Positions 9,530 to 43,529 of a stretch of DNA of 64,000 nt are shown here, piece by piece. The position numbers were made by a program, and so were the translations under genes. Below the pieces are notes generated by a model. That model worked only from the letters and a program-made list of their open reading frames with translations. It was not told the origin of the DNA and made no database searches. The number at the start of each line of letters is the position of its first letter. The first letter of the stretch is position 1. The DNA is from Methanobacteriota archaeon (GTDB lineage Archaea > JAADCQ01 > Methanopyri > Methanopyrales > Methanopyraceae): contig JAMOPO010000052.1 in the NCBI GenBank assembly GCA_027064425.1, positions 124,001-188,000 on the forward strand, in the 5' to 3' direction.

Positions 9530-10732
9530 TTGGAACAGATCGTCAAGTCAGCGCTGGAGCGAATGGAGGAGGAAGTCAAGGGGGGAGAAGCCCCACCCCA
9601 CCGCGACCGTAGCCAGTCCGAAGAGGACCAAGAGCTGATGGAGGTCCTGGAGGAGGCTCGCGCCAAGATCCTGGTCGTGGGCGTCGGCGGGGCGGGCAAC
9701 AACACCGCCACCCGGCTCAAGGAGGAGGGGATCGAGGGCGCGGAGATCGTCGCCGTGAACACGGACGCTCAGGACCTCGTCGCCTGCAAGGCGGACAGGA
9801 AGGTGTTGATCGGCTACGAGCTCACCCGCGGGCTCGGCGCGGGCGGGGACCCGCGCATCGGCGAGGAGGCTGCGAAGGAGGACATCGACAAGATCAAGGA
9901 GGTCGTCGAGGGCGCGGACATGGTGTTCGTGACCTGCGGGCTCGGCGGCGGGACCGGGACAGGGGCCGCCCCCGTCATCGCTGAGGCCGCCCGGAAGAGC
10001 GGCGCCCTCACCATCGGGGTCGTCACCCTCCCGTTCTCCGTGGAGGGCCGCAAGCGCATCGAGAACGCGCTCGAGGGGCTGGACAAGCTCAAGCAGGTCG
10101 TGGACACGTGCATCGTCATCCCGAACGACCGTCTCCTGGAGATCGTCCCCGACCTGCCCATCACCGCCGCGTTCAAGGTCGCCGACGAGGTCCTGATCAA
10201 CGCGGTGAAGGGCATCACCGAGATGATCACCAAGCCGGGTCTCATGAACCTCGACTTCGCGGACGTGAAGGCCGTGATGGAGGACGGCGGCCTCGCGCTC
10301 ATCGGTATCGGAGAGGCGGAGAACGATTCCGAATCCAACCGCTCGGTCAAAGCCGTCGAGAGCGCCCTGAACAACCCGCTCGTCGAGGTCGACGTGAGCG
10401 GGGCGACGGGAGCCCTGGTCAACATCGTCGGCGGGAAGGACCTGACCCTCAAGGAGGCTGAGGAGGTGGTGGAGCTGGTGGCCTCCGAGCTGGCGGAGGA
10501 CGCGACCATCATCTGGGGCGCTCAGATCGACGAGGACCTGAACGACATCCTCCGCGTCACGGTCATCGTGACCGGGATAGAGGACGTCGACTTCCACTCG
10601 ATGTTCAACATCTCCGGCTCCGGCCGCCGCGAGGAGGAAGAGGAGGAGCGTCCCCTGGAAACCAGGAAACGCGAGGAAGAGAAAAGGAAAAGGGAGACCC
10701 CCTCGATCGACGAGCTGGAGAAGATCCTGTAG
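9530..10732 (+). CDS. ftsZ: Cell division protein FtsZ
   Basis: A 400-residue tubulin-like GTPase that forms the division ring. GTP-binding loops are visible: GVGGAGNN (51-58), the signature GGGTGTG (139-145) and the T7 loop NLDFADVK. A charged N-terminal extension of about 45 residues and a Glu/Arg-rich C-terminal linker precede the terminal SIDELEKIL, the likely partner-binding tail. The start is TTG three bases after pheT. Its place before secE, spt5 and the L11-L1-P0 genes is the usual euryarchaeal arrangement of ftsZ1. Confidence 0.95.
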
Positions 10733-41193: not shown

Positions 41194-41598
41194 ATGAAAC
41201 GCTTGAACGTGCATGTTAGGGAGCGGGAAGGAGACGTCGTGCTGGAGTTCTGCGGGGAGGACGGGTGCATCCAGGTGTCGGCCCGGGCCTTCTACACCGC
41301 GGTGATAATGAGCGGCGAGGACACCGTGGAGAAGACCAAGGAGCTCCTCACCAAGCCCTTCGAGCTGCTCGGGGAGGATCCCCCCGAGGTGCGCGTCCGC
41401 AGGTCGGAGGATCCGGAGGGTACCCTGCTGAACCCTTGGGTGACCTCGTCGCACGAGGAGGTCGAGTTCTTTACGTTCGAGCTGGAACGGGGAGGCGAGA
41501 CTTTAAAACTCTCCTTGGCAGTCCCGCGCGGCTCTCGGGGCGGCACCTCAAAAATCAAGGAGGTCATTAACCTATTGAAGTCTCGACTCCCGTGGTGA
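41194..41598 (+). CDS. Uncharacterised protein, first gene of the PhoU/FtsZ-like unit
   Basis: A 134-residue soluble alpha/beta protein. Parts are LNVHVREREGDVVLEFCGED, a helical section FYTAVIMSGEDTVEKTKELL and a beta-rich second half EVEFFTFELERGGETLKLSL ending in a helix. No family recognised. It begins ATG after GGGG and ends 18 nt before the HTH-PhoU gene, the first of four closely packed genes on the plus strand. Confidence 0.55.
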   Translation: MKRLNVHVREREGDVVLEFCGEDGCIQVSARAFYTAVIMSGEDTVEKTKELLTKPFELLGEDPPEVRVRRSEDPEGTLLNPWVTSSHEEVEFFTFELERGGETLKLSLAVPRGSRGGTSKIKEVINLLKSRLPW

Positions 41599-41616
41599 GC
41601 CGGAGGTGAGCTCGTC

Positions 41617-42546
41617 TTGTACCCGCGGGGTAGAAAGGCCACCCTGGCCGCGATCCTGCGCACGATCCTGAAGGATCAGCCCTCAACGCAGAAAGAGATA
41701 GCCGAGAAGGTGGGCGTCTCGCGGCGGTACGTGACGGAGCTGCTTCAGCCGCTGATGGAGAAGGGGGCCGTTTTCCGGACGTACGCCGTCGACATGACCA
41801 AGCTCCGCCGGCACTTCCCCGAGCTGTTCGAGGAGCTCGGTCGACACATCTACGAGGACATCGAGTCGCACCTGGAGAGCGTCCGCCCCTACTTCGAGCG
41901 GATGATCGACCTGACGGAGTCACAGGTGGAGAGCGCGATCCTGGCCATCGAGGAGGACCCGAGCCTCGCCCAGAAGATCGTGAAGATGGACGAGGAGGTC
42001 AACCGGCTGGACGAGGAGATCCGGCTGTACGTTCGAGCGCTTCCAACGTTCCACCCGTGCGAGGAGGCGGGGAAAGTCTCGACGCTCCTCCTCGAGATCT
42101 CGCACTGCATCGAGCGGATCGGAGACTACGCGTGCAACATCGCGGAGGTGGCGGACAGGATCGGAACGCTCTCCGACCTGGGGTGCTGGGAGGAGCTCAA
42201 GGAGGCCGCGGAGCGGGCCCGGTCGATGGTCTCGACCTCGTACGACGCGTTCCTATCCCTGTCCAAGCGTCGGGTCAAGAAGGCCGCGGAGGACGTGTAC
42301 CGGCAGGAGGAGCGCGTCCACGATAGCATAATAAAGGCCTGCGACGATGCGATCAAGGAAACGGAGGAGTTTCCGTCCCGCGCCCGGTACCTCTTCGCCG
42401 TGTCACGCGTGACGAAGGACGTCGAGCGCATCGCGGACAAGGCCGTCGATATCGTCGACTACACGCGAGAGCTGGTCGAGGGTCGACCGCGCGACCTGAC
42501 CCCGGAGCAGGAGGTGAGGGGAACCATCCCGGCCGACACCGCGTAA
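41617..42546 (+). CDS. HTH-PhoU domain protein
   Basis: A 309-residue protein. Residues 8-60 form a winged helix: ILRTILKDQPSTQKEIAEKV and GVSRRYVTELLQPLMEKGAV. Two PhoU helical bundles follow: HLESVRPYFERMIDLTESQV with EEVNRLDEEIRLYVRALPTF, then ISHCIERIGDYACNIAEVAD, and a repeat ending VERIADKAVDIVDYTREL. E/D-R-x-x-D motifs are the PhoU metal/phosphate signatures. It may link phosphate state to transcription. No pst genes are present here; instead it precedes the FtsZ-like gene by 16 nt. The start is TTG. Confidence 0.8.
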   Translation: MYPRGRKATLAAILRTILKDQPSTQKEIAEKVGVSRRYVTELLQPLMEKGAVFRTYAVDMTKLRRHFPELFEELGRHIYEDIESHLESVRPYFERMIDLTESQVESAILAIEEDPSLAQKIVKMDEEVNRLDEEIRLYVRALPTFHPCEEAGKVSTLLLEISHCIERIGDYACNIAEVADRIGTLSDLGCWEELKEAAERARSMVSTSYDAFLSLSKRRVKKAAEDVYRQEERVHDSIIKACDDAIKETEEFPSRARYLFAVSRVTKDVERIADKAVDIVDYTRELVEGRPRDLTPEQEVRGTIPADTA

Positions 42547-42562
42547 GGGGGGTGCCGGGACG

Positions 42563-43288
42563 GTGCACTACGTCGGGCTGGGCGGCTTCGGATGCCGGTT
42601 CTCCTCCCACGCTTCCAACGCCGGCTTCCGAGTGCTCGCCTGCGTCGGCTCCAAGGGTGACCTCCTGCGGGTCTCGGAGGGCAAGACCGTCGAGGTAGCA
42701 CCGGACATCGGCTACAACCGCGACTGGCGTCGAGCCTCCGAGGAGCTCGCGGATCACGAGAAGGCCATGAACACGATCCGCAAGTGCCTCGAGCAGCACC
42801 TGGACGGCCCCACGCTCATGGCGTTCGGACTGGGCGGAGCAGTGGGGTTCGCGCTCGCCCGACCCTTCCTCGAGGACCCTCCCGTCCCCTTCGTCCTCCT
42901 CGTCACGATCCCGGGCGAGTCCGAGGATCCCCAGGTCCGACGCAACGCGCGCGAGCAGGTGGACGTGGTGCTGAAGGTCTCCTCCAAGCTCCCGATCCTC
43001 TGGGTGGACAACGATATTGGTGGAGGCTACGACCGGGTCAACCGGATGCTCGAGAAGACGCTCTCCGAGTTCCGGGAGTTCCTGAACGTCCCGGTCGAGG
43101 AGCTCCCGAACATGGCCGGGAACTACGCGGTCTCCCCCTCCCTACCCGGCGAGCGCGTGACCGAGGAGATCGTCAAGACGAACCCCAGCGAGATCCGTCG
43201 GCTCGTGAGCGATCGGGAGCCCGAGGAGCGCGTGATCAAGGAGGAGCGGAAGGGGCCGGACCCGGACTCACTGAGGGAGCTGTTCTAG
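42563..43288 (+). CDS. Short FtsZ/tubulin-like GTPase homologue
   Basis: A 241-residue protein. YVGLGGFGCRF (4-13) resembles the FtsZ T1 loop [26 protein letters not shown] (88-105) lies where FtsZ has [16 protein letters not shown], and LLVTIPGESEDPQVRRNARE with ILWVDND (to 151) aligns with Fts[15 protein letters not shown] ... CIVIPND. The signature GGGTGTG is altered, and the region that should hold the T7 loop and the C-terminal domain is short. It is thus a divergent tubulin-superfamily protein; nucleotide binding is possible, polymerisation doubtful. GTG start. Confidence 0.5.
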   Translation: MHYVGLGGFGCRFSSHASNAGFRVLACVGSKGDLLRVSEGKTVEVAPDIGYNRDWRRASEELADHEKAMNTIRKCLEQHLDGPTLMAFGLGGAVGFALARPFLEDPPVPFVLLVTIPGESEDPQVRRNAREQVDVVLKVSSKLPILWVDNDIGGGYDRVNRMLEKTLSEFREFLNVPVEELPNMAGNYAVSPSLPGERVTEEIVKTNPSEIRRLVSDREPEERVIKEERKGPDPDSLRELF

Positions 43289-43301
43289 GGGGCGGCCTCC
43301 G

Positions 43302-43529
43302 ATGACTCGGAAGGCCAGGGTCACGCTCACGCTCTCAGAGGACGCCCTGGCCCGGGTCCTGGCGGCCAAGGACGCGCTGGAGGGGGAGAGCATCTCCTCC
43401 ACGGTCGGCAAGCTGGTGAAGTTCGGGTTCGCCTACCTACGAGAGAAGTTCCCCGAGCTCTTCGAAGGCATCGACCTGGAGGAGTACCGCCACAAGGCCC
43501 GAGAGCGCTGGTTCAGCGAGCGGTCATAA
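43302..43529 (+). CDS. Ribbon-helix-helix-like small protein
   Basis: A 75-residue protein. A first strand KARVTLTLSEDALARVLAAK followed by helix and turn GESISSTVGKLVKFGFAYLR fits a ribbon-helix-helix DNA-binding fold. The C-terminal 30 residues are acidic, then basic. It could regulate its own operon, whose other members are the FtsZ-like and HTH-PhoU proteins; no operator was identified. ATG follows GGGGGCGG; the FtsZ-like gene ends 13 nt upstream. Confidence 0.55.
   Translation: MTRKARVTLTLSEDALARVLAAKDALEGESISSTVGKLVKFGFAYLREKFPELFEGIDLEEYRHKARERWFSERS

Follow-up and report, generated by a model that had tools for sequence, protein, structure and literature searches.

What is left of an FtsZ that consists of little more than its nucleotide-binding domain, and what might such a protein do? 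In the tubulin superfamily, the nucleotide-binding and the T7-bearing C-terminal domains are normally inseparable, each subunit completing the active site of its neighbor. The question is raised by a locus of Methanopyrus, a heat-loving, methane-making archaeon, within a 64,000-nucleotide stretch of contig JAMOPO010000052.1 (positions 124,001 to 188,000; the window, in whose numbering coordinates are given unless another locus is named). Four open reading frames, all on the + strand, follow one another at 41194-41598, 41617-42546, 42563-43288, and 43302-43529, with gaps of 18, 16, and 13 nucleotides, exactly as described in the initial annotation, which had read them as one unit encoding a protein of unknown function (gene 1), a PhoU protein with a helix-turn-helix (HTH) domain (gene 2), a short FtsZ/tubulin-like protein (gene 3), and a ribbon-helix-helix (RHH) protein (gene 4). 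We find that genes 3 and 4 form a cassette of their own, and we propose, with a probability of roughly 0.45, that gene 3 encodes a Methanopyrus-specific, non-polymerizing regulatory pseudo-FtsZ.

Gene 3 (42563-43288), whose GTG start matches the TTG start of the Methanopyrus kandleri ortholog, encodes a 241-residue protein that profile–profile alignment, a structure model, its orthologs, and their substitution rates identify as a tubulin/FtsZ-superfamily nucleotide-binding-domain protein without the C-terminal (activation) domain. Five Methanopyrus genomes were compared (G000, which carries the window, to G004; G002 is presumably M. kandleri AV19), and orthologs with 67% identity were found in two of them. 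Pfam, NCBIfam, PHROGs, and PADLOC yielded no usable match; with PF00091, the orthologs scored 12 bits (cut-off 33), and the window protein had no Pfam match. When six Methanopyrus sequences (three orthologs plus three paralogs at 24–27% identity) were combined into a profile and compared by hhalign with 13 archaeal FtsZs, however, the probability was 96% and the score 70.6, as opposed to 13.4 ± 2.3 (maximum 21.1) for 150 column-shuffled versions and 17.5 for the reversed profile. Orthologs alone (60.8) and paralogs alone (63.6) also aligned with FtsZ, and the alignment of the full profile passes through T1, T3, T4, and T5 in order. Against separate templates, the orthologs scored 47.5 (FtsZ1), 35.0 (CetZ), and 21.6 (FtsZ2), values that vary with template diversity and hence do not assign gene 3 to a subfamily. 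A profile search of 394 archaeal genomes returned, outside Methanopyrus, matches that on examination were almost all FtsZ1, FtsZ2, CetZ, or other FtsZ-like proteins, besides a few short spurious ones, such as a MoeB-like protein.

The structure was modeled with AlphaFold2 from an FtsZ-free input, the window protein and one paralog (predicted TM score 0.57; predicted local distance difference test [pLDDT] 68–83 across residues 1–50). With this model, Foldseek ranks 1 to 7 were all FtsZ, CetZ, or TubZ, and VIA-align placed CetZ2 on top (Z 11.8 over 160 residues), with CetZ1 at 11.7, M. jannaschii FtsZ at 10.5, and tubulin at 10.4; its top 50 rows, with Z between 9.9 and 11.8, were without exception members of the tubulin superfamily. 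The single-sequence model was poor (pLDDT 40), and its Foldseek matches, also tubulin-type, are taken as supportive only. Because profile–profile comparison with its controls, the genome-wide profile search, and the FtsZ-free model agree, gene 3 is a homolog of the tubulin/FtsZ superfamily, without being FtsZ, CetZ, or tubulin proper, and the predicted fold is very probably that of tubulin and FtsZ. The likeness to the FtsZ nucleotide-binding core first noticed by eye (T1, T4, T5, and T6) is thereby placed far above chance, and structure prediction points the same way.

How much of FtsZ has been kept is best seen loop by loop (all on the + strand). The T1 loop, VGLGGFGCR (42572-42598), is evident from the alignment to FtsZ, and its motif G..GC[RK] is common to all gene 3 paralogs. 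According to the same alignment, FGLGGAVGFALA (42824-42859) stands in place of the FtsZ T4 signature loop, and TIPGESEDPQVRRNA (42905-42949) corresponds to T5/H5. T6 would be WVDND (43001-43015; VIPND in FtsZ; model strand 146–151), an equivalence drawn by eye that MAFFT puts a few columns off; those for H7 and T7 are partly by eye as well. The core helix H7, GYDRVNRMLEKTLSEFREFL (43025-43084; alignment and model helix 155–174), resembles CetZ H7, AYERINYTIVERIASLLAL (compare YDRVNRMLEKTL of gene 3 with YERINYTIVERI of CetZ; YERVN and YERIN are alike). A degenerate T7-like segment without the catalytic NxDxxD follows (LPNMAGNYAV, 43103-43132, placed by MAFFT with moderate confidence), and a charged tail after H7 is closed by the conserved peptide PDP[DE]SLRELF (PDPDSLRELF at 43256-43285; nine of 10 residues identical in M. 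kandleri). Thus, kept are GLGGFGC in T1, TIPGESED..RRNA in T5, VDND in T6, and H7; altered are the T1 asparagine (to arginine), NTD in T2 (to GSK), GGGTGTG in T4 (to GGAVGFA, the paralogs having GGAIG, LGATG, or GGAVG instead of GGGTG[ST]G), and NxDxxD in T7 (to NMAGNYA). The domain with loops T1–T6 and a subsequent H7 is present, in a model that is confident only to about residue 110; the alignment to FtsZ ends at H7 and the degenerate T7, and beyond H7, the model contains no structured domain but a tail. The altered signature and the missing C-terminal domain, both noted before, were therefore borne out.

Compared with archaeal FtsZ1 (PF00091 plus PF12327), its best profile–profile match, gene 3 has T1, T3, T4, T5, and T6 in the same order as well as H7, but it lacks GGGTGTG, the NxDxxD of T7, and the C-terminal domain, stays below the curated cut-off of PF00091, and is 241 instead of about 400 residues long. 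CetZ proteins are its top structural matches, those of Thermococcales are among its genome matches, and H7 is alike; CetZ, however, retains the GGGTGAG signature, T7, and its own C-terminal domain, none of which is found in gene 3. When the window protein is compared with its M. kandleri ortholog, the loops of the nucleotide face are 81% identical and the rest of the domain 53% (Fisher p = 1e-4). Because of this difference, and because a dN/dS (ratio of nonsynonymous to synonymous substitution rates) of 0.22 indicates purifying selection, gene 3 is judged to be functional and not a decaying pseudogene.

Whether gene 3 belongs to a larger unit was decided by its relatives. Gene 1 (41194-41598; 134 residues, of unknown function) is confined to Methanopyrus, is divergent from a ferredoxin-like gene, and always, in five of five genomes, precedes gene 2 (41617-42546). 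The latter is an HTH-PhoU protein as initially annotated: PF01895 matches in two stretches (E 1.5e-27), and the HTH at the N-terminus matches HTH_24 (E 2e-8; both Pfam). This pair, present in all five genomes, also where genes 3 and 4 are missing, is the older, ancestral one. The same four genes, in the same order as in the window, occur in M. kandleri and a second genome, that is, genes 3 and 4 lie behind gene 1-phoU only in G000, G001, and G002; the expectation of a four-gene unit shared among relatives held to this extent only, since G003 and G004 have genes 1 and 2 alone. There, at an otherwise intact locus, argJ directly follows phoU. G003 is most closely related to the window (84% identity in PhoU); 51 nucleotides separate its phoU and argJ, and this gap keeps a CTTTAAG element resembling CTTTTAA, which precedes argJ in the window. 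Because gene 1-phoU runs straight into argJ in these two genomes, genes 3 and 4 are a separable two-gene cassette between gene 1-phoU and argJ, and no four-gene unit exists; the PhoU-type regulator, upstream and outside the cassette, is an accidental neighbor of gene 3. Since the cassette sits right behind phoU, gene 3 can still be read through from it.

The nonsynonymous divergence (dN) between the window and M. kandleri is 0.26 for gene 3, 0.22 for phoU, and 0.24 for argJ. Because the divergence of gene 3 resembles that of its neighbors, the cassette was probably inherited vertically and predates the split of the window lineage and M. kandleri; it was deleted in G003, and it may have been gained after G004 had branched off. 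Diverged paralogs were seen only in Methanopyrus, at unrelated loci: two in G004, one in M. kandleri, and none in G003. One of those in G004 (L012, 1640-3923) has an MgtC/DUF4010 membrane protein gene 239 nucleotides upstream and is convergent with a gene resembling histone deacetylases, and the second tubulin-like gene of G002 (L013, 8388-9892) precedes a HEPN-like gene (PF05168 E 0.02, below the cut-off). A search of genome contigs for related loci found none with the single gene 3 sequence and one paralog with the alignment; viral contigs contained none.

What, then, could gene 3 do? An FtsZ subunit uses its T7 loop to complete the GTPase site of the adjacent subunit. Lacking T7 as well as the C-terminal domain, gene 3 would be capable neither of normal protofilament stacking nor of FtsZ-type GTP hydrolysis, and its motifs make it likely that it does not polymerize. 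It would offer just one of the two longitudinal interfaces. Because the nucleotide face is its best-conserved part, we propose that this face docks on a T7-bearing subunit, which would be the cell's single FtsZ; the docked protein would cap or sequester FtsZ and thereby act as a dispensable regulator of division, with gene 4 either binding the gene 3 protein or controlling gene 3 expression. In obstructing one end of the longitudinal interface of FtsZ, the proposed mode recalls that of SulA and MciZ, inhibitors of FtsZ assembly that occupy the T7 face; those, however, are unrelated folds, whereas gene 3 is itself an FtsZ homolog. The parts of this proposal differ in strength. FtsZ as the target, in the strict form and taken alone, is tentative and rather doubtful, and it is unlikely that the complete picture applies, in which an FtsZ domain devoid of its C-terminal domain is an endogenous FtsZ cap or sequestering factor with a dedicated small regulator, that is, an inhibitor that evolved from a filament protein.

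Several points weigh against the pseudo-FtsZ proposal. Both nucleotide binding and the interaction with FtsZ are predictions from sequence, and the loss of NTD in T2, of GGGTGTG in T4, and of the T1 asparagine could mean that GTP is not bound at all. The nucleotide face may be conserved for reasons of fold alone, and confidence in the two-sequence model is low past about residue 110. The cassette is dispensable, with G003 lacking any member of the family, which argues against a core role in division; and the paralogs have different neighbors and may have different roles. As a protein retained under purifying selection without T7 and the second domain, gene 3 would show what the first tubulin domain can do alone; it also allows capping to be tested directly where there is only one FtsZ and the divisome is odd, and its family marks a diverged branch of the superfamily overlooked by current Pfam and NCBIfam models. 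A literature search found no description of proteins of the Methanopyrus gene 3 family.

The canonical FtsZ, of the FtsZ1 type, is encoded at 9530-10732 on the + strand, in a secE/spt5/L11/L1/L10 neighborhood (PF00091 E 5e-53), and it is the only PF00091 match above the cut-off in each Methanopyrus genome. SepF and an FtsA-like protein are encoded in every one of them, which makes for an unusual division apparatus; among archaea, the FtsA-like protein is unique to Methanopyrus (PMC8178401). No correlation with the cassette was seen for the genes encoding the FtsA-like protein or an ABC permease, both of which are present in five of five genomes. All five FtsZs end in a [DE][DE]LE[KR]IL-type tail and lack, though SepF is present, the GID motif reported to be nearly invariant in SepF-binding archaeal FtsZ tails (PMC8178401). 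The likeness between SLRELF at the end of gene 3 and the conserved DLE[KR]IL-type tail of FtsZ is by eye only.

Of the alternative explanations, the one that survives best is a toxin–antitoxin-like or addiction module, in which an FtsZ-domain mimic, when free, poisons division and the 75-residue product of gene 4 (43302-43529) neutralizes it and represses the pair. Consistent with such a module, the two-gene cassette was precisely gained or lost at one locus, and gene 4, found only where a gene 3 ortholog occurs, accompanies it in three of three genomes, neither being present in the remaining ones (paralogs aside). Gene 4 is also far more conserved than gene 3 (88% identity to its M. kandleri counterpart; dN/dS 0.04). 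However, neither protein matches a toxin, antitoxin, or defense family, the order is large-then-small instead of the usual antitoxin-first, neither the cassette nor any relative of gene 3 was found on plasmids or phages, and divergence matching that of the neighbors suggests vertical descent rather than mobility. The RHH identity claimed for gene 4 could not be substantiated: there was no match in Pfam, PHROGs, or PDB profiles, RHH_1 included, and when gene 4 was aligned by hhalign with nine archaeal RHH domains, among them Thermococcales CdrS, 41 of 150 shuffles equaled its score, in a test of low power (effective number of sequences 1.1); by eye, a strand-helix-helix pattern is plausible. 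We therefore regard a toxin–antitoxin module as quite unlikely.

Among known systems that pair a tubulin homolog with a small regulator, cdrS-ftsZ2 comes nearest (PMC7439475, PMC8406309), and the cassette might be its degenerate remnant, canonical FtsZ2 having been lost in Methanopyrus and gene 4 being a CdrS-type regulator. This pair is widespread in archaea (PMC7439475, PMC8406309; parD in PMC8178401); CdrS was found beside FtsZ in none of 20 loci inspected, and later, the pair was confirmed in a Thermococcales genome. In both cases, a tubulin-superfamily gene adjoins the gene of a small protein with which it is probably co-transcribed, and the only FtsZ of Methanopyrus is of the FtsZ1 type. 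Yet in cdrS-ftsZ2, an RHH_1 protein is encoded immediately upstream of ftsZ2, whereas gene 4 lies downstream and is not detectably RHH or CdrS, its similarity to either CdrS or RHH_1 not exceeding that of shuffles. Nor is gene 3 a canonical FtsZ2: its orthologs score lower against FtsZ2 (21.6) than against FtsZ1 or CetZ on templates of differing diversity, and its paralogs reside at unlinked loci without such a partner. A remnant of cdrS-ftsZ2 is thus distinctly unlikely.

Regulation of a tubulin-like system by phosphate through PhoU-HTH, within a four-gene operon, was what the initial annotation had suggested. The tight gaps of 18, 16, and 13 nucleotides make read-through from phoU likely, and the order is shared by M. 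kandleri and the second genome. However, G003 and G004 have an intact gene 1-phoU pair followed by argJ without genes 3 and 4, homologs of phoU are widespread in archaea without a tubulin-like gene, and the paralogs of gene 3 are not near phoU. With a cassette that is independent of PhoU and a partner whose RHH nature is unproven, the suggestion was abandoned as very unlikely.

It could also be argued that gene 3 is no tubulin relative at all but an ordinary Rossmann-like nucleotide- or cofactor-binding protein, the glycine-rich loops of which are FtsZ-like by chance. The Pfam tubulin model reached E 0.1 at best; a profile search of PDB sequences returned weak Rossmann (NmrA/MoeB-type) and ABC matches, one TubZ/RepX row (E 0.5), and no canonical FtsZ; and in Foldseek, folds of the ArnA type follow from rank 8 on. 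Against this stand the hhalign score far above shuffles with T1, T3, T4, and T5 aligned in order, the fact that nearly all genome matches examined outside Methanopyrus are FtsZ or CetZ, and the 50 tubulin-superfamily rows heading the VIA-align list, so that a chance resemblance is highly improbable. Least credible of all is that the cassette is what remains, on the chromosome, of a TubZ/TubR-like system for DNA partition, with gene 4 as DNA-binding adaptor: the tubulin-like gene does adjoin a small, possibly DNA-binding protein, and the structure matches include TubZ and PhuZ, but the 16- and 37-nucleotide gaps leave no room for a centromere, only short chance repeats and no iteron or centromere repeat array are present, gene 3 lacks the C-terminal domain with which TubZ forms filaments, plasmid or phage relatives were not found, and divergence is vertical-like.

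Beyond these systems, FtsZl1 and FtsZl2 are diverged members of the superfamily with GGGTG[ST]G and long extra C-terminal regions (Makarova & Koonin 2010, PMC2875224). As in gene 3, the C-terminal region departs from that of FtsZ, and FtsZl1 is also without recognizable T6-H7 (PMC2875224); gene 3, however, has neither the signature nor a long coiled-coil or mixed C-terminal region, and is much shorter. Unusual tubulin-like genes were also encountered elsewhere. In one archaeal family, five FtsZ-like genes are arranged in tandem within about 5 kb (G019:C7:14017-19047 [L015] and G040:C1:900648-905695), and four or more in a third genome (G060:C54, L014); some of their T4 signatures are altered (e.g., GGGTASGG, GGGAGTGG), and two further FtsZs are encoded elsewhere in the genome. 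Diverged FtsZ-like proteins of about 341 residues, likewise from a single archaeal family (L028, 568-1593; L037, 874-1902), carry SFGGTGASG at T4, and their C-terminal half is unusual.

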